Assembly (NCBI GenBank): GCA_903911085.1
Contig: CAIWCC010000120.1
Span: 1-36,984 of the forward strand
DNA length: 36,984 bases
Source: an uncultured Bacteroidales bacterium
GTDB lineage: Bacteria > Bacteroidota > Bacteroidia > Bacteroidales > Paludibacteraceae
Reading direction: 5' to 3'
This document shows, one piece after another, positions 16,669-31,460 of this stretch (positions within the stretch are counted from its first letter, which is position 1; each line of letters begins with the position of its first letter). Below the pieces are notes generated by a model that was not told where the DNA came from, searched no databases, and saw only the letters and a program-made list of their open reading frames with translations. The position numbers and the translations under genes are program-made.

Positions 16669-16914
16669 CATTGTTGTCCGGTAAAAACAAAAGAAAAAAT
16701 AATGTCGCTCCTAAGGAGCTCTGGTAATACTTGTAACTTGTTGACTATCATAGTGTCGCTTCTCCGAAGCTATTTATAAAAAGTCCCATCGGGACGAAAT
16801 TATGGTAGAAAATATGCAAAAACAAAATCTAAGCCCCATCGGGGCGAAATTATCTCAAAGCATTATTGGAAGCGGTTTTTTGATGCAAAATAAAAAGTTT
16901 ATCGGACTACAATT
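16669..16914. mobile_element. 246-bp MITE-like element, copy 1, with 9-bp target duplication
   Basis: Left end ATTGTTGTCCGGTAAA and right end TTTATCGGACTACAAT are imperfect inverted repeats. The element is flanked by TATCTTAAC at 16660-16668 and 16915-16923. Inside are four GC-rich hairpins: GCTCCTAAGGAGC, GCTTCTCCGAAGC, GTCCCATCGGGAC and GCCCCATCGGGGC. It has no gene. A second copy of exactly the same length lies at 30156-30401 in the same orientation. The stretch before it (16494-16659) holds only AT-rich DNA with a short run of attgata repeats just after the adhesin stop. Confidence 0.85.
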
Positions 16915-17924: not shown

Positions 17925-18884
17925 TTACTTGAAATAGTTTTTTATCTCTATTCCAATTCTTTCAATTTCATCATAACCTTCAAATACAATTGAACTTTCA
18001 AGTTCAAGCTTAAAAGGTCTTGTTCGATTGAATAAAAGACTAATTGCTGTGTTTTTCCCTTCAAGTCGTTGTTTCTCTTCTTTCAGAAGTTTATTGTTTA
18101 CATTGTTGCCAATTTCTACAATCAAATCAAACAAATTATGACCTCGGACAAAAAGATAGGTATTATTTGAAGTTAAACCAAGTTTAATGAAATGTTGTTT
18201 CGTTGCTTCAATATTTCTGTGTGGAAATTGGATTTTTAATGCATTGGTTTTGTTATTACAGCGTATGTTTAATTCATCTAGTATTGCTTTACCATTATTG
18301 TCGATGTCAGAATTTAAAATAACTTGTTGTAAATGAATAATTTCGTTGAATGAGTCTTTTGAAAAAGTGTTTGTGTCTCCACTTTGAAGAAAATGTAGAT
18401 GCCATATAAAAGTATCGTAAACGATTTTTGAATACTGAAGTAGAAAATATTCAAAATCGAAAAATATATTTTCAATCCCAGTACATTTTGCAGATAAAGT
18501 ATTTAGTTTTGATTTATAGCAAAGATGGTTTTCAATAGAATAAGTGTATGTCTGAAAGATATGTTTCGTTGTGTTAATGTTCATATCTTGAAGTATATAT
18601 CGGTAGTCACTATCAATACATATTAAGAAACGCTCACTAAGAAAATTGCTAAATTTTAAGCATTGTGCCGAGCCCGATGTTTCATTATTAGAGACAGAAT
18701 TGGAAGCCCATATAAAATTAAACCTTTTTGCAGGTAAATAATGATTGAAAGTATTTTCCCAAAATACAGCATCATCAAATGCTTCAACATGAACAGTTGC
18801 AGTGCATTCTAATTCATAAGATGCCCCAGCATAATAATTTGCCCAATATTCATAGTGTTCGTTTTCGGTGATAAATGGAATCAT
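17925..18884 (-). CDS. DUF4435 protein, AriB-like effector of a PARIS-like defence pair
   Basis: The 319-aa product carries DUF4435 (Toprim-like) hallmarks: VHVEAFDDAVFW with Glu34 as the likely metal-binding acid, LICIDSDYRYIL with Asp91 and Asp93, and the family motif TYSIENHL around residue 117. In the PARIS system the DUF4435 subunit AriB is a Toprim nuclease that is released and attacks host tRNA when its ATPase partner AriA senses a phage trigger. The gene starts three bases after the stop of an AAA ATPase gene, so the two are co-translated. The rest of the protein is Asn/Lys-rich and I cannot assign it. The pair could also belong to another AAA-DUF4435 type of defence system. Confidence 0.72.
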   Translation of the reverse strand: MIPFITENEHYEYWANYYAGASYELECTATVHVEAFDDAVFWENTFNHYLPAKRFNFIWASNSVSNNETSGSAQCLKFSNFLSERFLICIDSDYRYILQDMNINTTKHIFQTYTYSIENHLCYKSKLNTLSAKCTGIENIFFDFEYFLLQYSKIVYDTFIWHLHFLQSGDTNTFSKDSFNEIIHLQQVILNSDIDNNGKAILDELNIRCNNKTNALKIQFPHRNIEATKQHFIKLGLTSNNTYLFVRGHNLFDLIVEIGNNVNNKLLKEEKQRLEGKNTAISLLFNRTRPFKLELESSIVFEGYDEIERIGIEIKNYFK

Positions 18885-18887
18885 AGG

Positions 18888-19742
18888 TTAATTAATAAAC
18901 AATTTTTCCATAAAGGTTAATTTATCTCCCCAACCTTTTCCAAAAATACTTGGTGAATGAGTCGCAATGATAAGTTGACAATTAGGGTTTAATTCTTGAA
19001 TTGTCATTATCAAATCTTGTTGCCATCCCAAATGTAATGATATTTCGGGCTCATCCATAAGTAATATATAGTTTTTTTTGTCCATTAAGAATACCTTGAA
19101 AAGTATTAATAATAATTGTTTTTCACCAGATGATAAATCTTCAATTTCAATTACTTTATCATCTGTGTTGAATACAATTCTATTGGAAGTATAATCAATA
19201 GAAATTTTTTTGCCTGTATTTTTGAATAATCTATCAATTAAACTGAAGAAAATTGAAATTTGTTTGTTAATTTCATCGGCTTTTTCAATTGCTTGAGTTA
19301 TACGTAATCTGTATTCAGTAAAAGAATTAGTACCTTTTCCTACTTCCAAAATAATTTTCTTAAGTTCGTTGGTTAGCGGACTTTCATTCTGCCCTAATCC
19401 TTTTTTGTCTGATACAGCAACATCAAATGTACTAATGAATTCAAAGTTATTTATAAATTCATCTGCATAACCTACCGAACTTATACTTTTCTTGTTTTTA
19501 GGAGTTGTGTTGATATTATGCCAGTTATTCTGATTTTGAATTTGGGCAGAATCGAATTTGAAATTAGCAATACTTTTTTCATCTCGCGAAATGGCAGCAT
19601 AAATTATTCGCAGCAAAGTTGTCTTTCCACTTCCGTTAATTCCAACCAATATGTTGACATCTGGATTTAGATTATTCCAGACAATATCGTGTTTACCCCA
19701 AAGTTTATTAATCTCAACTCGCTTGATATAATTTGTTGTCAT
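18888..19742 (-). CDS. AAA ATPase (AAA_15/21 type), AriA-like partner of the DUF4435 gene
   Basis: The 284-aa product has a Walker A motif VGINGSGKTTL (near residues 33-43), an ABC/SMC-type signature SSGEKQ (about 204-209), a Walker B YILLMDEPE (about 225-233) and a switch His in IIATHS (about 262). It resembles the OLD/AAA_15 group used in defence systems, not a transporter ATPase. It lacks the long insertion and C-terminal part expected for AriA (about 450 residues, from memory), so it is a compact version. The start at 19742 (MTTNYIKRVE) is chosen because a -7 box covers the upstream in-frame ATG at 19761-19763. It is transcribed first, with the DUF4435 gene three bases downstream. Confidence 0.78.
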   Translation of the reverse strand: MTTNYIKRVEINKLWGKHDIVWNNLNPDVNILVGINGSGKTTLLRIIYAAISRDEKSIANFKFDSAQIQNQNNWHNINTTPKNKKSISSVGYADEFINNFEFISTFDVAVSDKKGLGQNESPLTNELKKIILEVGKGTNSFTEYRLRITQAIEKADEINKQISIFFSLIDRLFKNTGKKISIDYTSNRIVFNTDDKVIEIEDLSSGEKQLLLILFKVFLMDKKNYILLMDEPEISLHLGWQQDLIMTIQELNPNCQLIIATHSPSIFGKGWGDKLTFMEKLFIN

Positions 19743-19760
19743 GGTGAACATTTTTTTTTG

Positions 19761-19768
19761 CAAAGATA
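19761..19768 (-). promoter_or_regulatory. -7 box TATCTTTG for the AAA/DUF4435 operon
   Basis: On the minus strand TATCTTTGCA fits the Bacteroidota consensus, 18 bases upstream of the ATG at 19742. The leader would be only about a dozen bases. This excludes the longer start at 19763. Confidence 0.6.
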
Positions 19769-20075
19769 TTAAATTTCTATGGATTTTTCTTTATCATAAT
19801 TTTATTATTCTTAATTTGCGTAATTTGATGGTTCAGAAAGTTGTTTTACTAAACGTTTTTAATTTAAAATGTATGAGTTTCAATGTTAATACTGATTTCC
19901 AACTCCTTCATAGTTTTAAAAACTAAAATTCCAAATATCTGTCAAGTGTGGTGAAAAGTAAATATGCTCAGTATTTCAGTAATTGATTTCTGGGATCTTA
20001 TATCCAAATGATTGCTAAATCTGATTTTTTTCCTAACTTTGTAACACTAATGATCTATTCAATCGAAGCATTTAT
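19769..20075. other. Gene-free AT-rich spacer
   Basis: Between the defence operon promoter and the repeat starting at 20076 I see no gene, hairpin or clear site, apart from AT-rich DNA that could hold the upstream part of the minus-strand promoter. Confidence 0.5.
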
Positions 20076-20390
20076 AATAGACTTTATATAGATTAAATTG
20101 CTATGCAATTAAAAATAAGATTCTTAACACTAAGTCCATTGAGAAACACTTAGACCCACTAAGGTTTTTTCAAACTAATATAGAACCCTAAGTATAAAAC
20201 ATAAATGTTTTATAATGTGATAATTGTAAACCTTAAAAACATTAATGTTTTTTCTTAGTGTACTTTAATTATCTTGCATTCTTTGTGCACCTATCTGCCC
20301 TTAGTATCTTAGTGGTGAATCTTAATTCGTTGTTTTTGAACATAATATACATTTAACAAATATAAACTCTGATGCATATAAACTCTAATA
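20076..20390. repeat. Dispersed repeat family 2, copy A (inverted-repeat ends)
   Basis: It begins AATAGACTTTATATAGATTA, which is found again at 30115-30134 and with changes at 34336-34355. It ends in a diverged inverted version (ATATAAACTCTAATA). The interior has the words cactaag, aacataaatgtttt and cttagtg that also occur in the other copies, including a palindrome around ACATAAATGTTTT. There is no coding potential. Confidence 0.6.
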
Positions 20391-20414
20391 TAAAAAATTA
20401 GAATCAATTGTTTG

Positions 20415-20461
20415 TAAAAAAAACTAGCTGTGCTTCAATTATCGAAGTTCAGCCAGTTTTG
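20415..20461. terminator. Long hairpin, probably a bidirectional terminator
   Basis: AAAACTAGCTG-CTTC pairs with CGAAG-CAGCCAGTTTT around a six-base loop. A runs lie on the left and T on the right, so it can end transcription on either strand, for example readthrough from the minus-strand GNAT gene. Confidence 0.45.
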
Positions 20462-20490
20462 TTAAATGTAAATGTCTAGTATTATTTAGG

Positions 20491-20828
20491 GCCTGCTGAA
20501 AAACTATTTACAACCACAAAGTGGTTTAATTTGATTAGCCCCGAATGAAATTCGGGGATGAAATGTATTCAAATGGCAGAACTCTGAAGGAGTTCAATAT
20601 CATCAATCAATTGAAATTAAACTCCTTCAGAGTTTTTTATGCCCATACATTTTTAATCCATGGGTTACAACCCATGGCTAATCATATTAAACTCTTTCAG
20701 AGTTATTTGTTGAGAGTACATAAATTTAATGAATAGATATTATTAAATAGGTTGAAAATTGCTTGCATATAAATTTTAAATAAATTTATGTTGTTGTTAT
20801 TGAGTATAATAATAGATTTTCAGCAGAC
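20491..20828. mobile_element. MITE-like element bounded by CTGCTGAAAA inverted repeats
   Basis: Left end GCCTGCTGAAAAA and right end TTTTCAGCAGAC are inverted repeats. The 338 bases between contain hairpins such as AACCACAAAGTGGTT, CCCCGAATGAAATTCGGGG, a repeated AACTCTGAAGGAGTT in both orientations, and CCATGGGTTACAACCCATGG. A 63-codon open frame across these hairpins is not credible as a gene. The right end stops five bases short of the GNAT stop codon. No clear target duplication was found. Confidence 0.5.
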
Positions 20829-20833
20829 ACTAC

Positions 20834-21364
20834 TTATAGTTTATCAATATCATTATTTATCAACCCATATCTATATTCATCACAAATCTTTCCATTTTTA
20901 AATATCGATTTTTCAAATATACATTCTAATTTGAATCCAGCTTTTTCGAGTACTCTTTGCGAAGCTTTATTAAAATCGAATACGCCAGTAAAAATCCTGA
21001 TTAATCCAAGTTCGTTAAATCCATATTTGCAAATCAAACGTACTGCCCTAGTAGTTAATCCCATGCCCCAAAAAGGTTCGCCAATCCAATAACCAATTTC
21101 GGCAGTTAATTTATAAACATCAGACTGTTTAACCAGTCCAATACTACCAGCAAATTCACCATTTACTACTATTGCAAATGTAAGTTGTGGGTTTTCATTC
21201 ACGCAATAATTAACAAACTCGATGGCATTATTCTTTGAATAAGGAAATGGAATATAATCTCGTAAGTTATCCCAAATCTTTTTGTTGTTGCAAAGCTCTG
21301 CAAGTTTATCAATATCAGATGTTGCAAATGGTCTTAGTTTTAATTCATTGTTAATTAATTCCAT
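20834..21364 (-). CDS. GNAT family N-acetyltransferase, RimJ/RimL-like
   Basis: The 176-aa product has the layout of the RimJ/RimL branch of GNAT enzymes: LRPFATSDIDKLAEL at the N-terminus, FAGSIGL, YWIGEPFWGMGLTTRA (acetyl-CoA pyrophosphate-binding loop) and NKASQRVLEKAGFKLE near the end. These transfer acetyl from acetyl-CoA to an amine, often a protein N-terminus or a small molecule; the substrate cannot be read here. It is a complete, free-standing gene on the minus strand, with an inverted-repeat element five bases past its stop. Confidence 0.85.
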   Translation of the reverse strand: MELINNELKLRPFATSDIDKLAELCNNKKIWDNLRDYIPFPYSKNNAIEFVNYCVNENPQLTFAIVVNGEFAGSIGLVKQSDVYKLTAEIGYWIGEPFWGMGLTTRAVRLICKYGFNELGLIRIFTGVFDFNKASQRVLEKAGFKLECIFEKSIFKNGKICDEYRYGLINNDIDKL

Positions 21365-21454
21365 ACACTATTTCTTTTTTGCAGTTTCTACACTAAATTC
21401 TTGGTTGTTATTGCAAATTATTCATTTTTCCAGTTTCGTTTTTTGTATATATTA

Positions 21455-21577
21455 TCAGACTTTCAAACGGTTCTTTCTCAATTTGTCTGATAATGCGTGA
21501 AACTCATGAAGAGCGAACCTAAATCTGGAATCAACGCCTTTCTGCAACAACTTATCAAAACCATTCTCTTTCTCCAT
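21455..21577 (-). CDS. Possible small protein, 40 aa
   Basis: An ATG at 21577 is preceded by AAGGAG two bases away and opens a 40-codon frame, MEKENGFDKLLQKGVDSRFR onwards, ending LRKNRLKV and TGA. The composition is charged and helical, which looks protein-like. It lies in the 333-base gap between the methyltransferase and GNAT genes on the same strand. It may be a small gene or the remnant of a larger one. No family is recognised. Confidence 0.3.
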   Translation of the reverse strand: MEKENGFDKLLQKGVDSRFRFALHEFHALSDKLRKNRLKV

Positions 21578-21697
21578 AACTCCTTTTTTTCCACCACGTT
21601 CGTTGAATGAAATGTCTGCAAGTGGGAAAACGGTTCAATCAACGCTTCCTTGCTGGAAAGGGCAGACAGCAGCAAGCCAAAGAATTAGCACTAGTTC

Positions 21698-22546
21698 TTA
21701 TATTCTAGCAAGCAAGAAAAATTCCCCGCTCGCAGGAATAAGATTGTCGGCTCTGTCTTTAAAATATCTTTCCGTCATATCCTTTGTCGAAACGGTTTGG
21801 ATTTCTTTCAAACCAATTTCTTCCGCTAGTTTCACAATTTTGTCAACCTGATAAAAACTCTTAAACGGCGTTCCAGAAGCAGATGCTCCTTTTATTGACA
21901 TTTCCATTAAATGTTTGTCTTCATCGTCAAGCTGTTCCAATGGCAAATAAAATGCTATTGCAATAGTTGAACCCGTTGCAAGTGAAGTCATTTTTTTCAG
22001 TGTGTCAATAATTGCATCTTTAGTAAGGTAAAGCGTAACTCCAGTGCAAGACACAAAAGTTGTTTGACGGCTGTCAAAACCTTTACTCAATAATTCATCC
22101 CACCATGATGAAGTCTCAAAGTCAACAGGTACGAAATGAAGATTATCAGAAATTTTGTAGCCTTTTTCAATAAGTTTTTCTTCTTTCCAAGTCAATGTGT
22201 CGGGTTGGTCAATTTCATAAATGTCAACTTGCGAACTGATTTCTGTATTTCGTTGGGCAAAACTGTCAAGTCCTGCACCAAGCAAAACATATTGTTTTAC
22301 ACCTTTTTCAATTTGTTCCTTGGCTACATCTTCAACAAAACGGGCTCGGGCAACAATGGAAGCACGAAGTCGTTTTGTGTATTTCATATCAGGACGTTCC
22401 TGCCAATCTTTCTCAGGATTAATTAAGTCATAACCTATACAATCATCAATAATATATGGTTTGTCATCAGTCAAAACGTGTAATGCTCTCCATAAAGCTG
22501 TTCTTTCAGCAGTATTATCTGGTTTTACTATCTTTCTTGTTTCCAT
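21698..22546 (-). CDS. Class I SAM-dependent methyltransferase, TIGR00027/leucine carboxyl methyltransferase-like
   Basis: The 282-aa product has the conserved ARARFVEDVAKEQIEKGVKQ, YVLLGAGLDSFAQR (SAM-binding loop), VDIYEIDQPDTL and FVSCTGVTLYLTKDAI segments of the TIGR00027 group, related to leucine carboxyl methyltransferases. These proteins methylate small molecules or carboxylates; the substrate is unknown. No signal peptide, so cytoplasmic. It lies between a GNAT gene and the restriction system on the same strand, with about 190 bases of hairpin-containing spacer before the restriction gene, so it is probably not part of that system. Confidence 0.85.
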   Translation of the reverse strand: METRKIVKPDNTAERTALWRALHVLTDDKPYIIDDCIGYDLINPEKDWQERPDMKYTKRLRASIVARARFVEDVAKEQIEKGVKQYVLLGAGLDSFAQRNTEISSQVDIYEIDQPDTLTWKEEKLIEKGYKISDNLHFVPVDFETSSWWDELLSKGFDSRQTTFVSCTGVTLYLTKDAIIDTLKKMTSLATGSTIAIAFYLPLEQLDDEDKHLMEMSIKGASASGTPFKSFYQVDKIVKLAEEIGLKEIQTVSTKDMTERYFKDRADNLIPASGEFFLLARI

Positions 22547-22737
22547 TCTTTCCGATTTATAGTTTCTAATTTGTACCTTAAGTTGCTCTTTCTGGTTTTG
22601 TTCGGCGTATAGCTTTTACTTCGCAGCTTTCATTACCTCACGATTTCGACCGTGATAGTTATCGGGAGCTATCGTGGAAGAAGGATGCCGAACCAATTAG
22701 ATTGCTAAACTTGCTACGCATAACGGAGGGATTGGTT

Positions 22738-23811
22738 TTATTTGAATCGTATTTGTAAGTTCAGTTTAAAGAAAAGTTGTCCGTTTGCATCGTAAATTTT
22801 CCCGAATTCGTGTCTTGTACTACTTGCTGTTTCAAGTTTTGTGTTCGCAAATAAATAGTCTTCAAATTGATTCCTGTTATAAATGTGATAACACAAGATA
22901 TCACCATTTTCTTTTATAATCAGATAGCCACCAGTTGCATCATAAATACCAGTCCATACTTTTGATGGTGTCATGCCTAATGCAACATCGGTCAAAAATC
23001 GTTTGATTTTATAGTCGTAAAAAGTGTGTGCAAATTGGGTGTCGTAATTTAGAGGATTGATTTGGTTGATGTTAGCGGTTAAATCCTCTATTGTGCTTAA
23101 ATTTGATGTAAAAAATGTTTTGATAATTTCCGCCAAAATATTTGGTAAAAGACTGTCAATAAGCACTAAATTATTCTTGAAGATGTTTTGCTCGAGAGTT
23201 GTAAAAGTCAGACGTCCACCTTTTTCATTTATAGCTGCAATTCTGTCTTTAATTTTACTTCTTGTGTCAATTTCGTTTATTTCTGAGACTTCTTCGACTG
23301 TTGGGTTGAAGTTGTCTAATTTATATATAAAATTTGTCGTTTTCCCAGCGTTTAAAAGAGTTGCTTCTCCTCCTAATTGAGATTTTATACTGAATCCCAA
23401 TTCGGCTGTTTGATTAATCCTTTGGTCGTGAATTACAATTCGAATATCAGTTTTTGAAGTCGATTTTGCTTTAAGAGTGTGGCAGTTTATGGCTGTCATA
23501 AACTCTTCTGTTTCAGGAATGCTGAATGCACCTGTTGACTTTTTTATTTTGGCTAAAAGAATAGCTGATTGGTCAATAAAGGTACTTACTGGAATTCTTA
23601 ATTCTTCTTTGCCACCCAAAATAATCACTAAATCATCATTTAATGCGTATTCAAAGTTACCTCCACTTTCGTTACGGATTATCTTAATAATCGGATAAAA
23701 TAATTCTTCAACTTTGTTTAAATCTGCGTCTCCCGCAAACAATTGCTTGTCACCAAGCAATTTAAATAATGCATAAATTTCACTCCATTCGCCTTTATTT
23801 CCTGTAATCAT
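22738..23811 (-). CDS. HpaII-type type II restriction endonuclease (predicted CCGG)
   Basis: The 357-aa product, close in length to HpaII, starts MITGNKGEWSEIYALFKLLG, a recognisable N-terminus of the RE_HpaII family. It ends in a segment with HEFGKIYDANGQLFFKLNLQ. It is expected to cut CCGG sites unless methylated. I cannot point to a proven catalytic triad in this family. The gene overlaps the end of the cytosine methyltransferase gene by four bases (ATGA), so endonuclease translation is coupled to, and follows, that of the protecting enzyme. The specificity rests on the partner methyltransferase's resemblance to M.HpaII. Confidence 0.88.
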   Translation of the reverse strand: MITGNKGEWSEIYALFKLLGDKQLFAGDADLNKVEELFYPIIKIIRNESGGNFEYALNDDLVIILGGKEELRIPVSTFIDQSAILLAKIKKSTGAFSIPETEEFMTAINCHTLKAKSTSKTDIRIVIHDQRINQTAELGFSIKSQLGGEATLLNAGKTTNFIYKLDNFNPTVEEVSEINEIDTRSKIKDRIAAINEKGGRLTFTTLEQNIFKNNLVLIDSLLPNILAEIIKTFFTSNLSTIEDLTANINQINPLNYDTQFAHTFYDYKIKRFLTDVALGMTPSKVWTGIYDATGGYLIIKENGDILCYHIYNRNQFEDYLFANTKLETASSTRHEFGKIYDANGQLFFKLNLQIRFK

Positions 23812-25076
23812 TTTGTCTTTTTTAATAGGTCAATTATTTTGCTCGCAGTCGCTTGAATTGCAGGAACGGCAACGGAGTTACCGAATTGTTTGTATGCGGA
23901 AGCATCTGCAACAGGGATATTGAAATTGTCTGGAAAACCTTGAAGTCTAGCCCATTCTCTCGGAGTCATTTTGCGAATTCCATCTCTATTCACAACGCCT
24001 TTAATATGCGTTGTTGGTGTGAAATCCGTAATTCTATTGTCAAGAACTAAGTTTCGTTCTCTACCCATTCCACCAACAACTATTGCGTTTGCAACACCAT
24101 CGTCAGAAATAATTTCAAAACCAAAACCATTACCTTTACTTGCGTGTCGCTCTTTATGGTTGATTAAAGTCTGAACATATTGAGTAGAAAGAAAGTATTT
24201 GGTTGGTGGTACAATTTCTTCTTTTACATCAGCAAATATCACATCCTTATTTGTAGGTTTTGGATATTCAAATTCGTTAATATTTAAGTCTTTGCGGAAG
24301 CCAATAATGTAAATTCTTTCTCGGTTTTGCGGAACTCCAAAATCTCTTGCATTAATTATTTGCGGTTCTGGAACATAATAATCTAAGTCATTACGCAAAA
24401 CATTAAGGATTGTTTCCAATGTTCTGCCTCCGTTATGATTTCTTAGTCCTTTTACGTTTTCAAGAAATATCGCTTTTGGTCTTTTACGTTTAATTATTTC
24501 GGCAACGTCAAAAAATAAAGTTCCTCTTGTGTCGTCAAAACCTCCTCGTTTCCCAGCTATTGAAAATGACTGGCATGGAAAACCAGCACAAAGTAAATCA
24601 AAACCATCTGGTATATAAGATTTTATCTCCTCTTTTGTTATGTCACCAAAAGGAACTTCTCCGAAATTTGCCCGATATGTTCGTTTTGCTTCTTTGTCCC
24701 ACTCGCTCGTAAATACGCATTTCCCACCCAAATTTTGTAAAGCCATGCGGAATCCACCAATTCCAGCAAATAAATCAATAAATTCGAATTTTGGACTTTC
24801 TGTTGGTGGAAATGGAACTTCAAACGTGTCAAAAAGACCATATTGTAAAGCTTCTTCGGCAACAATACTTGTAATACTTTCGTCAGGATATTTATATTGC
24901 AAAATTTCCTTTGTGTACTCAATCGCATCTTTTTTGTAGAATTTAGAAGTGCCATTAGAATGGTTGTGCATATAATGTGTTAAGACTGCATCTTTGTTTG
25001 ATTCAGGCTCTATAACTCTAATTTTAAAGCGTTTTCCACTTATTTCTTCGAGAGAAATCTTTTCTGTAAAATTCAT
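23808..25076 (-). CDS. DNA (cytosine-5) methyltransferase, M.HpaII-like, with N-terminal extension
   Basis: The 422-aa product contains all C5-methyltransferase motifs in order: I (FIDLFAGIGGF), IV (CAGFPCQSFSIAGKRGG, catalytic Cys168), VI (LENVKGL), VIII (QNRERIYIIGF), IX (REWARLQGFPD) and X (QFGNSVAVPA). The recognition region (KHERH-type, GNGFGFEIISDDGVANAIVV) closely resembles M.HpaII as I remember it, so CCGG is expected. Compared with M.HpaII it has roughly 60 extra residues at the N-terminus (MNFTEKISLEEISGKRFKIR onwards). The ATG at 25076 is chosen over an in-frame TTG at 25142. It overlaps the endonuclease gene by four bases and is transcribed first, so protection precedes cutting. 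Confidence 0.92.
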   Translation of the reverse strand: MNFTEKISLEEISGKRFKIRVIEPESNKDAVLTHYMHNHSNGTSKFYKKDAIEYTKEILQYKYPDESITSIVAEEALQYGLFDTFEVPFPPTESPKFEFIDLFAGIGGFRMALQNLGGKCVFTSEWDKEAKRTYRANFGEVPFGDITKEEIKSYIPDGFDLLCAGFPCQSFSIAGKRGGFDDTRGTLFFDVAEIIKRKRPKAIFLENVKGLRNHNGGRTLETILNVLRNDLDYYVPEPQIINARDFGVPQNRERIYIIGFRKDLNINEFEYPKPTNKDVIFADVKEEIVPPTKYFLSTQYVQTLINHKERHASKGNGFGFEIISDDGVANAIVVGGMGRERNLVLDNRITDFTPTTHIKGVVNRDGIRKMTPREWARLQGFPDNFNIPVADASAYKQFGNSVAVPAIQATASKIIDLLKKTK

Positions 25077-25112
25077 TTTCTTTTTGTTGATTAACTCTTT
25101 TATTTTGAGGGT

Positions 25113-25120
25113 GCAATTTA
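25113..25120 (-). promoter_or_regulatory. Possible -7 box of the restriction-modification operon
   Basis: TAAATTGC on the minus strand is one base short of the TAnnTTTG consensus and lies 36 bases upstream of the ATG at 25076. It supports that start over the TTG at 25142, but the match is weak. Confidence 0.3.
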
Positions 25121-25195
25121 GCAATTTTTTTTCGATTTTCAAACCCCAAAATCTTAAAACTGCCTAACTTTGAATATGAAGGTTTTGATTTCCAC

Positions 25196-25364
25196 GATAG
25201 CTCAGGTCTGTGACCTGTGCTATTCAAAAAGAAAGTTTAATATCTTTTACTGTATTGTCACGGTTCACAGAACCGCGCCAGCGGGGGGGCTATAAGGAAT
25301 GCATTATATTTGAATATGGAAAGCGGAGCTTTCCTTCCCACACGACATAGCGAAAGACGCTATG
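25196..25364. repeat. Cluster of four short hairpins between the methyltransferase and porU-like genes
   Basis: Perfect or near-perfect stems: GATAGCTCAGGTC/GACCTGTGCTAT (25196-25224), GGTTCACAGAACC (near 25263), GGAAAGCGGAGCTTTCC (25318-25334) and CATAGCG-AAAGA-CGCTATG (25346-25364). A run of seven G lies among them. Such hairpin clusters are typical intergenic repeats of this genome; one may serve as the terminator of the minus-strand protease gene's upstream neighbour. Confidence 0.5.
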
Positions 25365-25382
25365 CCGAACTGAGGGATATTT

Positions 25383-28300
25383 TTAATCTATAACAATCAA
25401 CTTATTATAGACAGAGCAAATATCGTGTGTATGCGTTTTTAGTGTAATGCAATACATGTAAACTCCAGCTTTTACTTTGCTGCCTGAATCGGCTGACAAA
25501 TCCCAAGTTAAGTTATCTATCGACGATTCACAGATTGATTTGATTTTACGCCCTGAAATATCAAATATATCTACAGTAGCTTTAATAATTGCTTCGACAC
25601 TACTATTATTCACTACAAAACGTGTTTGATTATTAACCGGATTTGGAAAGTTTGCTGCTTTAAAACCAGTCGAACTGGTTAGTTGATGAATGCCACTTTT
25701 CATATCAGTACCTCCTACGATAAAATTTTCGAAATAACCATTTGCTTCATTATTATTGGTTTCATCCTGAGCATAATAAATAATACGTCCGGTTCCAAAA
25801 GTTAAATTAATATCATTAGGCATTTTCAATGGAATACTAAAAGTCCCATCAACAACAGCAACATCTCCAGTATATAATGCCACAGGACGGTCGGAAAACA
25901 CATAAGTAGTGCCATCTTTGTCGTTGTCAAGGGTTGTAATCCTTTGTATCTTATCAAACAATTCCACGTGTAGATTTCCATTAAAGCCTGATACCAGATT
26001 GCCACTTTCATCAGCTATAATGCCCTTAATGGTATTAATTGATTGTGCTTTTAAAGTATCTGCACCAAATACCGTACTTTTATTTATGCTGTTGGTTATG
26101 ACCTTATATTCAGTAGGAAAATTAAGTATTAATGCTGGATCACCCAAATAAGTGTATAACAATTTGTTTATTTCAGGTCCTAACTGATTCTTTGCCAATC
26201 TAATCGCATCTCCCATACGAAGTTGTTTTCCATTCACTTTTTTGAATAAATTACTGCAAAACGCATTATTCAAATTGAAATTCTGAGATGCCCAAGACAA
26301 TCTTGTTGGAGATAGAACTCCAATACCACCTCCTACGGGATTAAGCAATACATTCTCACCAGCTGAAACATTCTTTATATCAAACTTATTGAAATCAGCT
26401 GTTGCACACATCCAAATTGGTAAGTTGGTATTTTTCAAACTTGAAATATCATCAACTGTTATAATTTTCTCGTTTGCCAGCGCATAAGGACCACCATGGC
26501 CGGTATAATTAAACATCAGCAAACCTGATTGTAATAGATTCATCAACTTGGATTTTGCTTCAGGATAAGAATTACCAGTTGATGAATTTTGCCGTTTATA
26601 AGTGTCCATAAAAATTTTATTTATCTTGAAAGCAGGAACAGTTCTTTCTACAATTGCTGCTACACTATCGGCCTGCTTTGCATGTAAACCAGTATCGCCA
26701 TCATCGGCCAAAAAGCAAAGATTATTTTTCCAATTTCCTTTTATCGAATTATTCATATAAGCAATCGTTTTATTAACCACATCAGTTGCTTGTTGAACTG
26801 TTGTTACCGGAAAACGACCAACTCCGATATCCATTAAATCAGAATGTAGTTGAGTTCCTTCATTATCATCCAAAAAAGCAAAATAATCATCTGTTAAATA
26901 AGATAAAACTTCATCCAACGAATTTTCGGTTTGATAAGTCAGAATTAAATTATCGCCCGAATCGGTTAATATCTTTCGGTTGTCAAAAGAACCTCGTCCA
27001 AAAAGCAGCAGATATTTTGGATTTCCAACCGTATTGTTTGCAGTTATCGCACGGTCACGAAGCATTTTCATTATTCGGCGATAAGCTGTGGCATCAGGAG
27101 TTCCCGAAGAGAATTCGTTATAAACCTGATCGGTGGTAACCACTGCCACCGTCATATTATCTTTTTGACGATGAGCTTGTGCCAGCGTTTCTGCCTGAGT
27201 TACAAAATCGGGATGCGTTAAAATTACCATATCGGCTTGTGCAATTCCGTGTAGATTTTGGTTGGGCACTATTCCAACGATTTCTGGTTTTGCAAAACTA
27301 GCAAAAGCTGTCGGGTCAATGGCAATATATTGGTTTACTTCATTACTGGATGCAATAAAACTCACTTTACCATCGATAGTTTCAGTTATCATATTGCCAA
27401 TATTTGCAGGATCAGTTACATCCCAGATTTTAATATTGGCATTCGCATCACTTAATAAGTATTTACTAAATGTATTTGTGCCAAGAAAATCAACGTTTTG
27501 AAATGGCATAACCGAACCGACCATTTTCAGTTGGCATCTGACATTCACTTCGAGATAATTCAAATAACCAATTGAAGCGGATGCTGGTTTATCGTAATTC
27601 AGAGTCAATCCAAAGTTAGCATTTTGAGGTGTAAACGAAAAAACAGAAGAGATACCTTTGCCTTTTTCATAAAAATATCCTAATGCACTTTTTGGAACAC
27701 CAAGTGTTTTAGGCTGTTGTCCGTTTAATTTTAATGTAAATACAGATGCAATGGAAGATGCAGCGGCAACATCAAGCCGTACGATCGTTGAATTTGTTAA
27801 TACGGGATTTGGAAAAGTAAAGGGTAAACTATATGTTGTTACAGCATCAAATATTTCGCCGTAAAATTCTTTCCCAGAATTTGTTATATTTATTAAATCT
27901 TTTTCATATACCTTATAATCAACAAACTCTTCCACTGGATGAATCGTTGGAGACCCCTGCAAAACAATGGTTTTATCCAAAATTTTCTTCCCATGTCCAG
28001 CATCAGAAGTAACAAAATAATATCCAGCATTAGAATACGTATTCGACTGATGAGTAAACATACCTTTGGTTGCATCGTACGACCATCGGTTGACTCCCTG
28101 CGCATAAAATAAAATATAATCGCCAGCATTAAAATCGCCATCTTTTCCTTTTTCCATCCAAATAGCTGTTTCGGGCAAATCATCATCTTTATTCAACGCT
28201 AAACTCTGATTCAAAACTCCTCCTCCATATCCAAAAATACGAACATTGGCAGGATCAATTCCCATCGAAGTCAAATCTTCAAAAGTTAGTTTATAAACTC

Positions 28301-28514
28301 CAGTGTCTGTAATGCGTACTTTTACAAATTTACCTTGTGCTAAAACAGAATTTGCAGAATAAGTTGGAAGTGATTGTATTGATGATTGAACTGCTACTTT
28401 ACAATTCTCAACTTCATTCAAATTTAATTTACTGAGTGAATTCAATAGTAACTGAGCATTTAAAGTTGAATTTATCAATGCCAAAATGGCAATTAGAAAA
28501 ATTTTGTTTTTCAT
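25383..28514 (-). CDS. porU: PorU-like type IX secretion C25 protease with altered catalytic site
   Basis: The 1043-aa product has a signal peptide (MKNKIFLIAILALINSTLNA), a PorU-type N-terminal part (DTGVYKLTFEDLTSMGID, VRIFGYGGG, WMEKGKDGDFNAGDYILFYA) and a gingipain-like C25 domain with YTGHGG (catalytic His673). It ends in a type A sorting domain (NFPNPVNNQTRF, VDIFDISGRKI, KAGVYMY), which PorU is known to keep. PorU is the outer-membrane sortase that removes sorting domains from T9SS cargo. In the place where the family has Cys, WMTASCD or TATCDF type, this protein reads WMCATADF: the aligned residue, 33 after the His as in gingipains, is Ala706, and a Cys lies three residues earlier (Cys703). 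The ATG at 28514 fits the signal peptide; an upstream in-frame ATG at 28622 does not. Confidence 0.85.
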   Translation of the reverse strand: MKNKIFLIAILALINSTLNAQLLLNSLSKLNLNEVENCKVAVQSSIQSLPTYSANSVLAQGKFVKVRITDTGVYKLTFEDLTSMGIDPANVRIFGYGGGVLNQSLALNKDDDLPETAIWMEKGKDGDFNAGDYILFYAQGVNRWSYDATKGMFTHQSNTYSNAGYYFVTSDAGHGKKILDKTIVLQGSPTIHPVEEFVDYKVYEKDLINITNSGKEFYGEIFDAVTTYSLPFTFPNPVLTNSTIVRLDVAAASSIASVFTLKLNGQQPKTLGVPKSALGYFYEKGKGISSVFSFTPQNANFGLTLNYDKPASASIGYLNYLEVNVRCQLKMVGSVMPFQNVDFLGTNTFSKYLLSDANANIKIWDVTDPANIGNMITETIDGKVSFIASSNEVNQYIAIDPTAFASFAKPEIVGIVPNQNLHGIAQADMVILTHPDFVTQAETLAQAHRQKDNMTVAVVTTDQVYNEFSSGTPDATAYRRIMKMLRDRAITANNTVGNPKYLLLFGRGSFDNRKILTDSGDNLILTYQTENSLDEVLSYLTDDYFAFLDDNEGTQLHSDLMDIGVGRFPVTTVQQATDVVNKTIAYMNNSIKGNWKNNLCFLADDGDTGLHAKQADSVAAIVERTVPAFKINKIFMDTYKRQNSSTGNSYPEAKSKLMNLLQSGLLMFNYTGHGGPYALANEKIITVDDISSLKNTNLPIWMCATADFNKFDIKNVSAGENVLLNPVGGGIGVLSPTRLSWASQNFNLNNAFCSNLFKKVNGKQLRMGDAIRLAKNQLGPEINKLLYTYLGDPALILNFPTEYKVITNSINKSTVFGADTLKAQSINTIKGIIADESGNLVSGFNGNLHVELFDKIQRITTLDNDKDGTTYVFSDRPVALYTGDVAVVDGTFSIPLKMPNDINLTFGTGRIIYYAQDETNNNEANGYFENFIVGGTDMKSGIHQLTSSTGFKAANFPNPVNNQTRFVVNNSSVEAIIKATVDIFDISGRKIKSICESSIDNLTWDLSADSGSKVKAGVYMYCITLKTHTHDICSVYNKLIVID

Positions 28515-29174
28515 TCGATTAAGAATTTGATTTAAAATATTAAATTTAAACATATTATATATTAACGCAATTGGGTACAAATTATTATAATTCATAAAAA
28601 GCAAATTTTCTTCCTGTCCCACAGGATATATCCATCATTATATTTGCAAATAATGTTAGTACGTTGTAGTTTTTTTTTCAATCCCAACTTTTATATTCTT
28701 AAGAATCAACACTCAGCGTAGTTAATTTTAATCAGTTCATAAAAAGCTTTTTTTATCGGAATGCAATTCCTCTTAGTACATAGAGTGTGATTGAAAAAAT
28801 CCCGCCCAACAGTGTTCAACTTTAATTAGCTAATCAATACATTCGCGAGGAAAAGATGTATTGTTGATAATATGAAATATATGGTTTTTCTGTAATTTAA
28901 CACGACTAACCATACAGTGATTTATTTTGTTTGAAAAACTATTCAATTTACAAATATTAAATTTCGTCAAAGATAAATACATTTTATTAAATATGCTAAT
29001 TATTTTGAAACTAAATTAATAATGTCAAGTAATCTTTTTTTGATGTTGGAATATGTTGGTTGGAGTTTGGCGTTGTGGTGCATAAATTTATTCAAATTGT
29101 AGTATAAACTGACTATGGTTTAGCTTATTTTGACTGTATATTTTGTATGAAAAACTTTTTAAAACACCAACGGC
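28515..29174. other. Gene-free stretch upstream of the PorU-like gene
   Basis: About 650 AT-rich bases with no credible gene on either strand. The upstream region of the minus-strand protease gene must be here, but I see no clear -7 box. Only short imperfect palindromes such as CCTGTCCCACAGG (near 28612) stand out. Confidence 0.5.
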
Positions 29175-29783
29175 GTAGATGTACGCGGTAGTGTTTGAGT
29201 AACTATTTTGCAGCGGCGTACATGTACAAAACTGCTGATGTTAAAATATTTTGTATTGGCGTACAAGTACGCGGTTATGTTTGAGTAACTAAAATGCACC
29301 TTTGTACATGTACGCCGAAGCTGATGTTAAAAAATATTGCCTTTTGTACATGTACGCAGAGCCCGATGTTAATATATATTGCCTGTTGTACATGTACGTC
29401 GTACCCGATGTTAAAATAAAACATAGTGGCGTACATGTACGCGGGTATGTTTGAGTAACTAAAATGCACCTTTGTACATGTACGCCGAGCCAGATGTTAA
29501 AATAAACATGCTTTTGTACATGTACACCGAGGCCGATGTTAAAAAATATTGCCTTTTGTACATGTACGCCGACCCCGTTGTAAAATAAAACATGCTTTTG
29601 TACATGTACGCGGGTATGTTTGAGTAACTGAAATGCACCTTTGTACATGTACGCCGTGCCCGATGTTAAAATAAAACATGCTTTTGTACATGTACGCCGA
29701 TGGTCGATGTTAAAATAAAACATACTTTTGTACATGTACAAAAATGTAGAATATTAAAATAAGTTGTGTTTTTGTACCTTTTT
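29175..29783. repeat. 42-44-bp tandem array with a palindromic GTACATGTAC core, about 14 units
   Basis: The core GTACATGTAC, a perfect 10-bp palindrome, recurs at 29218, 29304, 29346, 29388, 29431, 29474, 29516, 29558, 29600, 29643, 29686 and 29730. Near-matches are at 29175 and 29261, and a decayed one near 29774. Spacing is 42-44 bases throughout. Spacers are of three related kinds (gcgggtatgtttgagtaact..., gatgttaaaataaaacat..., gatgttaaaaaatattgcc...). The first kind recurs every fourth unit (29261, 29431, 29600), giving a period of about 170 bases. Frames of over 60 codons run through it, but the palindrome reads without stop in every frame. Confidence 0.9.
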
Positions 29784-29890
29784 TTCTACTGTTACTGTCA
29801 TTTTTTTGCTTACTTTTGTGAGATTGGAATTCATAGAATTGCAACTAAGTAATGGACATAATACAATGTCGAATAAATAAAAAAGAATAG

Positions 29891-30114: not shown

Positions 30115-30523
30115 AATAGACTTTATATAGATTAGTATACTATGTGATTTAAAATTATTGTTGTCTGGTAAAAACAAAAGAAAAAATAATGTCGCTCCTA
30201 GGGAGCTCTGGCAACACTTGTAACTTATTGACTACCATAATGTCGCTTCTCCGAAGCTATTTATAAAAAGTCCCATTGGGACGAAATTATGGTAGAAAAT
30301 ATGCAAAAACAAAATCTAAGCCCCATCGGGGCGAAATTATCTCAAAGCATTATTGGAAGCGGTTTTTCAGATGAAAATTAAAAGTTTATCGGACAACAAT
30401 AATTTAAAATAAAAGATTAACCACTAAGTCACTAAACTTAGTGTAATTTAGTGTAACTTAGTGTCTAATCTAAAATTTCTGTTTTTGAGAGCTATAAACG
30501 TTTAATCTATATAAACTCTAATA
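30115..30523. repeat. Dispersed repeat family 2, copy B, split by a MITE
   Basis: Starts AATAGACTTTATATAGATTA (identical to copy A at 20076) and ends TAATCTATATAAACTCTAAT, its inverted counterpart. The MITE at 30156-30401 splits it. With the MITE and one target copy removed, it continues GATTTAAAATAAAAGATTAA then CCACTAAGTCACTAA and CTTAGTGTAATTTAGTGTAA, closely matching copy C near 34370-34600. Confidence 0.7.
30156..30401. mobile_element. 246-bp MITE-like element, copy 2, nested in repeat family 2
   Basis: Ends ATTGTTGTCTGGTAAA and TTTATCGGACAACAAT form an inverted repeat. It is flanked by ATTTAAAAT at 30147-30155 and 30402-30410. It has the same four hairpins and nearly the same sequence as 16669-16914. 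The unoccupied target GATTTAAAATAAAA, with matching flanks, is found at about 34368-34381. Confidence 0.88.
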
Positions 30524-30675: not shown

Positions 30676-31296
30676 ATGAAAAAAATCTTTATTTTATCAA
30701 TTATCACACTTGGTTTAACTCTGTATTCGAATAATTTGGCGGCACAAGAAACCATGATTTCGAAAGTACCAAAACAAATAAGTTTTGAGGCTGGTTATAG
30801 AAATGTGTTTACACTTATCGACAAAAGTGCAATTTCATTTTTGAATCCAACTTCAACAGGTATGAATGAAGCTACTCATGGTTATGGTTTTTTGTTCGAT
30901 TATGCATGGAAGTTGAGTGGACTTGATGGAAAAAAGCCAGCCATATTTATAACTGTGCCAATTGGTTATACGGTAATGATGCCCGATAACAGTGCTTCTA
31001 AAAGTTTATCAATGCTTAATTATGGTTGGACAGTTCGTCATGAATTGGCATGCAATAAAAAAGTTGTACCGTTTGTTGGGTATGGCTTATTGTTGAATAC
31101 TTTGAAGATAGATGGAACTGAGGGTGGGGTAATGGGTCATCAAACACAATTTGAAGGCGGTGTCAATCTTAATACCAATTCCAGACTGAAGTATTTTGCA
31201 AAATTACAATGCAGCTATACCTCTTTTCCCAAACTTGGTGCCAAAGAACGAATTCATTTTATGTTTGCCGATTTAAGAGTTGGGGTAAGATTTTAG
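30676..31296 (+). CDS. Small outer-membrane beta-barrel protein, unassigned
   Basis: The 206-aa product has a signal peptide (MKKIFILSIITLGLTLYSNN, cut after LAAQ) followed by alternating strands (ISFEAGYRNVF, HGYGFLFDYAWKL, MLNYGWTVRHELA, VVPFVGYGLLLN, KYFAKLQCSYTSFP). It ends in MFADLRVGVRF, the C-terminal aromatic residue typical of outer-membrane barrels. It is probably an eight-stranded porin-like protein of unknown role. The ATG at 30676 is preferred over an upstream TTG because it opens the signal peptide. It is isolated, with repeat DNA on both sides. Confidence 0.7.
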   Translation: MKKIFILSIITLGLTLYSNNLAAQETMISKVPKQISFEAGYRNVFTLIDKSAISFLNPTSTGMNEATHGYGFLFDYAWKLSGLDGKKPAIFITVPIGYTVMMPDNSASKSLSMLNYGWTVRHELACNKKVVPFVGYGLLLNTLKIDGTEGGVMGHQTQFEGGVNLNTNSRLKYFAKLQCSYTSFPKLGAKERIHFMFADLRVGVRF

Positions 31297-31460
31297 AACC
31301 TAGACATTAGAGCCAAGAGCAAAGACTTTAGAACAAAGATTTTAGAGCCAAGACTTTAGAGCCAAGAACCAAGATTTTAGAGCCAAGAACCAAGAGCAAA
31401 GACTTAGAACAAAGACTTTAGAACAAAGACTTTAGAACAAAGAACCAAGATTAAAGACTG
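31297..31460. repeat. Purine-rich minisatellite (tttagaacaaagac / ttagagccaagaac)
   Basis: Directly after the barrel gene, short units of about 14-20 bases, variants of ttagaRCcaagaac and tttagaacaaagac, repeat about ten times. It is followed by a run of ttaattatcaatta repeats up to about 31540. No gene is present. Confidence 0.7.

Follow-up and report, generated by a model that had tools for sequence, protein, structure and literature searches.

The window, by which we mean the whole stretch of 36,984 bases analysed (contig C120 of a 6.25-Mb draft assembly in 269 contigs), contains an array of 14 dyad cores that forms the upstream part of a dispersed, non-coding element of about 0.95 kb with an outward predicted promoter in its leader. 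Judging from its layout and conservation, we read the array as a phased operator array for a putative dimeric protein acting on a cassette-type promoter, a reading whose chances we consider evenly balanced. The leader promoter would drive the first leftward gene, a dimeric DNA-binding protein would fill many cores cooperatively, with neighbours nearly on one face, and the resulting nucleoprotein stretch would activate or silence the leader promoter. Counted for the operator reading are the three copies of the element, a fixed 200-bp geometry, conservation of the cores, homology of the leader to a recombinase-linked region, the different cassettes joined at one G|TT junction, the promoter match past the recombinase stop in relatives, and GTACNNGTAC arrays with 21/42-bp periods in other Bacteroidota. 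Counted against it are the absence of the array in the relatives searched and at the peptidase loci checked, the lack of a recognisable attachment-like site in the window copy, the weak difference between cores and spacers in the C63–C142 comparison, the small number of copies, the loss of phase at 10.5 bp/turn, and RNA folding beyond that of spacer-shuffled controls, which an operator array does not need. The features concerned are as follows.

25383..28622, minus strand: first gene downstream of the predicted promoter, a peptidase of family C25 (PF01364, 4.5e-104)
28893..29170, minus strand: leader, non-repetitive, homologous to the integron-like platform promoter region (from alignment; approximate boundaries)
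28968..28975, minus strand: match to the Bacteroidota -7 promoter motif, TATCTTTG, reading left (consensus match)
29175..29739, no strand: array of 14 dyad cores GTACATGTAC at 42–44 bp spacing (motif count)
29261..29717, no strand: 170-bp four-unit block, about 2.7 copies (TRF 29257–29717)
29740..29841, no strand: tail common to the three copies, after which homology ends (alignment of copies)

As the motif count shows, GTACATGTAC is exact in 12 of the 14 cores and carries one mismatch in those at 29175 and 29261, in agreement with the original prediction of some 14 palindromes at 42–44 bp. The cores start at 29175, 29218, 29261, 29304, 29346, 29388, 29431, 29474, 29516, 29558, 29600, 29643, 29686, and 29730, and their spacings are 42, 43, or 44 (mean 42.7, sd 0.6). 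Across the 36,984 bases, 16 matches with at most one mismatch are seen, 14 of them inside the array; 100 dinucleotide shuffles of the window gave a mean of 0.87 matches and a maximum of 4. The array had been drawn as far as 29783, but the cores stop at 29739 and the next candidate, at 29768, has 3 mismatches. A four-unit order near 170 bp had also been described. TRF recovers it in the window (period 170, 2.7 copies, 88% match), where the TATGTTTGAGTAACT spacer recurs at 29261, 29431, and 29600, with a variant also at 29175, but it is absent from the two other copies of the array, on contigs C63 and C142, in which this spacer type is found at units 1, 3 (variant), and 8. The 170-bp order is a local block duplication, limited to the window copy.

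Neighbouring cores lie about four turns apart and are nearly in phase, as had been proposed, but the extension of this claim to all cores on one face of the helix does not hold at 10.5 bp/turn, where the whole-array phase resultants are 0.38, 0.30, and 0.35 in the three copies. At 10.67 bp/turn they are 0.89, 0.87, and 0.82; placement of the entire array on one face requires about 10.6–10.7 bp/turn. A CRISPR array, for which unique spacers would be expected, was rejected: the spacers recur in a few types and are, as had been noted, unlike those of CRISPR. A coding repeat was rejected as well, because the 42/43/44 spacings shift the frame and the units hold plus-strand stops. A Pfam search with the reverse 150-aa frame over the array returned no match.

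The element of which the array is part spans about 28893–29841 (~950 bp), and it is not a solitary locus, since two further copies lie on C63 and C142. Exact GTACATGTAC occurs 35 times in the genome: 12 times in the window, 10 on C63, 10 on C142, and as 3 singles elsewhere. Alignment of the three loci gives one element, with leader, array, and tail in every copy. The window leader is 89% identical to that of the C63 copy and 88% to that of the C142 copy; C63 and C142 share 90% identity across 840 alignment columns, and the window copy is about 77% identical to either. There are 14 cores in the window copy and 11 in each of the others, three further units forming an additional stretch in the window array; on C63 and C142, two or more spacer types follow one another in a conserved order. 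With the approximate end positions used, the best end-to-end match for terminal inverted repeats did not exceed that of shuffles in 3 of 3 copies. A phage or plasmid origin was rejected, the 971-base element having no match in either collection in distant mode; four viral contigs share the paired core pattern as their sole common feature with it. Each of the three array copies has on its right a dispersed palindromic repeat (TCCCATCGGGACGAAATTA and relatives); repeats of this type are located at 16784–16852 and 30271–30339 of the window, at ~11955–12074 of L016, and at ~2060–2200 of L017.

Comparison of the copies shows that the cores are kept better than the spacers, and the array better than its flanks, in a sample of three copies, two of them 90% alike. 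Over 10 matched units per pair, chosen from the copy alignment, the window and C63 differ at 3/100 core and 49/327 spacer positions (p 7e-4), and the window and C142 at 1/100 and 54/327 (p 4e-6); window units 5–8 and unit 5 of C63/C142, which lack a one-to-one partner, were excluded. In the comparisons with the window, the pairing of unit 3 may be wrong. Without unit 3 the counts are 2/90 vs 33/294 for window–C63 (p 0.006) and 0/90 vs 39/294 for window–C142 (p 3e-5); when units 1 and 3 are both dropped, the counts become 0/80 vs 31/261 and 0/80 vs 36/261. In the case of C63 and C142, substitutions are seen at 2/110 core, 20/330 spacer, 37/280 leader, and 25/101 tail positions (cores vs leader plus tail, p 9e-6; spacers vs leader plus tail, p 2e-5; cores vs spacers, p 0.08). 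Gene conversion could explain why the array is kept better than its flanks, but not easily why cores are kept better than spacers. Neutral drift is disfavoured because the cores change less than the spacers between copies.

The leader carries a minus-strand match to the Bacteroidota promoter consensus, TAnnTTTG as given in the available text of PMC7366714, and in 3 of 3 copies exactly 200 bp separate this match from the first core. In the window, the gene predicted to follow is the C25 peptidase, whose sorting tail for type IX secretion (PF18962) scores 26.4 bits, below the cut-off of 27; at the other copies the first leftward gene encodes an outer-membrane protein or a methyltransferase. Sorting tails and PorP/SprF occur among the flanking proteins scanned, and together with the promoter type they point to a host within the Bacteroidota. 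No array cores were found upstream of C25 peptidase homologues at 5 of 5 loci in the genus. A run of minus-strand genes, 17925–28622, ends at the element, and within it, at 22738–25142 on the minus strand, an HpaII-type restriction enzyme (PF09561) adjoins a C5 cytosine methylase (PF00145). Dispersed elements that end in GTTCGGCATAGCG and CGCCGAAC lie between neighbouring genes at 22530–22760 and 25120–25400 of the window and at 2500–7080 of L016. On the other side, at 31287–31443, lies a minisatellite (AGAACAAAGACTTT type) whose periods are 14, 21, and 35 bp.

The leader itself probably goes back to the region of cassette promoter and attachment site in an integron-like platform that this lineage carries. 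Parts of it recur in the genome without the array, on C93, C2, C215, C111, C113, and C106, and a leftward-extended leader query finds C206, which has the same promoter and a further conserved site. On C206, a recombinase gene to the right of these occupies the slot that the array takes in the window (L151:314–2065 and 2066–2420); the gene ends about 30 nt from the promoter, with promoter and site directly after the stop. This integron trait, a tyrosine recombinase beside a promoter and an attachment site, is present on C206 only, and the three array-bearing copies have no recombinase gene. The conserved attachment-like site terminates in GGTG|TTA. On C142 (L017:1–560) the site adjoins a methyltransferase cassette (TTACCAGC...) and on C206 a third gene; on C77 (L150) it adjoins two other cassettes and an attC-like site, which leads to the methyltransferase cassette found on C142. 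Between C142 and C77, then, one attachment site meets different cassettes at a G|TT junction. Junctions such as those on C142, C77, and C206 are the expected trace of integron-type exchange, although a mixture of strains or a misassembly could produce part of the same pattern. On C159 the promoter and site come with yet another cassette; the stretch read there holds no recombinase gene and no array.

In the window copy an attachment-like site is not recognisable, and the platform reading therefore rests on the C142 and C63 copies. Folding of one strand into a hairpin gave z values of -2.34 for the C77 attC, -0.84 for the C63 attC-like site, and -0.78 and -0.44 for two attI-like sites. Derivation of the array from attachment sites was rejected, the similarity being no better than that of shuffles in 12 of 12 comparisons.

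The C206 tyrosine recombinase is of IntI/Xer type (583 aa; PF00589, 1.4e-42), and its best solved relative is IntI4 (2a3v, 1.4e-36). IntI4 aligns in two stretches, 14–182 and 246–319, with residues 183–245 opposite only 20 residues. The protein scores 209.5 bits with the NCBIfam integron integrase model TIGR02249 (cut-off 265) and 218.2 bits with the XerA/integron-integrase model NF040815 (cut-off 220). According to the available part of PMC9668308, a recombinase is called an IntI by its IntI-specific additional domain. Neither the IntI4 alignment nor the NCBIfam models reveal this domain in the C206 recombinase, which by this criterion is not an IntI. At E up to 1e-90 the recombinase is found in 21 of 100 relatives searched, the source genome included. 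The gene end is readable at 19 of 22 loci, and in 12 of these 19 a TAnnTTTG lies 29–36 nt past the stop; in base-shuffled sequence, the chance of this motif anywhere within 120 nt is 2–18% per locus. The sites after the promoter match differ in their repeated motif between genomes among these relatives (L163–L183).

The array was absent from the 35 same-genus and 24 other same-order genomes searched; two of the same-genus genomes (G020 and G021) gave one short match each, with no GTACATGTAC in the locus. A survey of 84,980 genomes for pairs of exact cores lying 38–48 bp apart yielded 46 stretches, mostly labelled Bacteroidota, with some labelled Treponema, Saccharibacteria, Clostridiales, and others. 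In 27 of the 46, at least one spacing is exactly 42. At least five GTACNNGTAC-like sites stand in a chain in 24 of them; in 20 of those, a gap of 21 or 42 is the most frequent, in one case level with 6 and 15. In some arrays the GTAC halves are kept while the centre varies, as in L033 (8 of 12 units with another centre) and L035 (5 of 7). Within Porphyromonas, GTACNNGTAC pairs occur in 1 of 26 species, P. loveana, where 8/8 are at 42 bp, in five places; several of the P. loveana spacers (L043, L057, L059) have an A-tract/T-tract dyad near the midpoint. A search for a gene family common to the neighbours of arrays elsewhere gave a few pairwise matches and no common gene. Judged by title, none of the 19 papers found to contain GTACATGTAC deals with a bacterial repeat array.

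These surveys bear on the view that the array is a neutral minisatellite within a dispersed element, functionless in itself, in which slippage and unequal exchange multiplied a 43-bp unit that arose by chance. The unit number does vary (14, 11, 11) and a four-unit block has been duplicated, which bears out part of the earlier suggestion of a recombination-prone satellite, and neither the other loci nor the relatives searched retain the array. GTAC-free minisatellites of 21 or 42 bp are present in the same genomes, indeed in the same stretches, as GTACNNGTAC arrays, and pairs of the reversed control core CATGNNCATG are found in 42 of 247 genomes of the order, compared with 6 of 247 for GTACNNGTAC; because of such control pairs and GTAC-less minisatellites, the period is not unique to the GTACATGTAC core. 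However, the control matches listed have, by eye, mostly a coding or codon-repeat look with spacings in multiples of three, the promoter distance is fixed, and core substitutions are far rarer than those of the spacers, when homogenisation by exchange should affect both. We consider a neutral origin rather unlikely. That the array is transcribed and works as a structured RNA, or that it insulates the promoter by a series of terminator-like hairpins, seems to us decidedly unlikely. The minus strand folds with z -9.2 vs shuffles, and relative to controls with cores kept and spacers shuffled (25 each) z is -5.3, -5.8, and -6.7 on the plus strand and -2.7, -4.2, and -4.2 on the minus strand; terminator-like matches also lie within the array. 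Tandem copies in both orientations, however, fold well for trivial reasons. Consensus folding, with 3 sequences only, gives no covariation support (term +3.1 and +5.0), both-side changes are seen in 4/186 and 3/159 pairs, and no Rfam family matches the window at gathering score.

The position of the array in the recombinase slot of the platform and the spread of three copies would also suit a site for recombination or element spread, for example a recombinase-binding or transposition enhancer region. We hold this very improbable; the array resembles attachment sites no more than shuffles do, terminal inverted repeats were not found, and GTACNNGTAC is absent from 22 of 22 recombinase loci examined. 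A role in segregation or the nucleoid, also put forward in the original prediction, gains no support from the flanking proteins scanned (a subset of the ORFs), among which there is no partition protein; a partition site of parS/parC type was rejected on the same set, with no partition gene beside the array. Control of the element, another of the roles suggested, fits best because the array heads an integron-like cassette promoter. As for the multi-site array for a dimeric protein, the conservation of cores over spacers and the 200-bp promoter distance argue for it indirectly, and the protein is putative.

Among known systems, BrickBuilt of Porphyromonas gingivalis is the closest kind. In the available text of PMC4596501, it is a minisatellite within a MITE, with promoter activity in leader and tail. 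Both are dispersed intergenic elements of leader, tandem repeats, and tail, with copy-variable repeat number and narrow host range. BrickBuilt, however, has 23-nt repeats without spacers, small terminal inverted repeats, and 19 copies (PMC4596501, same text), whereas the element here is made of 42–45-bp units built on a 10-bp dyad core, occurs in 3 full copies, yielded no terminal inverted repeats, and has a leader homologous to an integron-like promoter region. Promoter activity of our element is predicted from a consensus -7 match. The 464/PgRS elements of P. gingivalis, with 41-nt tandem repeats, have a nearly equal period; the same text describes their flanks as themselves repetitive, and the likeness noted is one of period in a dispersed Bacteroidota element (PMC4596501). 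The platform is like an integron in its promoter and attachment site beside a tyrosine recombinase, its unidirectional cassette genes, and its G|TT joins (available portions of PMC8618304, PMC9024848, PMC9668308), and unlike one in that its recombinase has no IntI-specific additional domain (PMC9668308, as above). Those portions of the integron literature describe no phased palindrome array at a cassette promoter (PMC8618304, PMC9024848, PMC9668308). The putative protein would resemble BldC, several copies of which occupy regular promoter sites and form a filament; according to the excerpted text of PMC5859096, the BldC sites are direct repeats one turn apart, whereas the array here consists of dyads about four turns apart over 565 bp.

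Should the array work as an operator, whole sets of captured cassette genes could come under the control of one multi-site regulator, and the array would be a defined bait for finding its protein. The results also point to an integron-like platform, in a Bacteroidota lineage, whose recombinase is non-canonical; for Bacteroidetes, the available text of PMC9024848 gives one complete integron (Salinibacter ruber M1), an earlier survey having found only In0. Finally, they raise the question of whether the exactly double-turn dyad arrays of other Bacteroidota are one class. We offer as a speculation, one that we think unlikely, that Bacteroidota have a nameless class of dispersed intergenic dyad arrays at exact double turns (21/22 or 42 bp), with a genome-specific core (GTACNNGTAC in several, CATGSSCATG in G134), read by a putative fast-evolving, filament-forming dimeric protein; the window array would be a member hitched to an integron-like cassette promoter, with captured genes under that protein. 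In G134, CATGSSCATG pairs 22 bp apart occur in at least five places (among the 8 listed of its 21 pairs). On contigs C1, C13, C52, and C58 of this genome the pairs have differing spacers, a possible second dyad core. A Saccharibacteria genome has a 40-bp unit, GTACATGTACGC plus an inverted repeat, in two copies at each of three places (L049:3461–3546, L051:56–141, L072:2109–2194).
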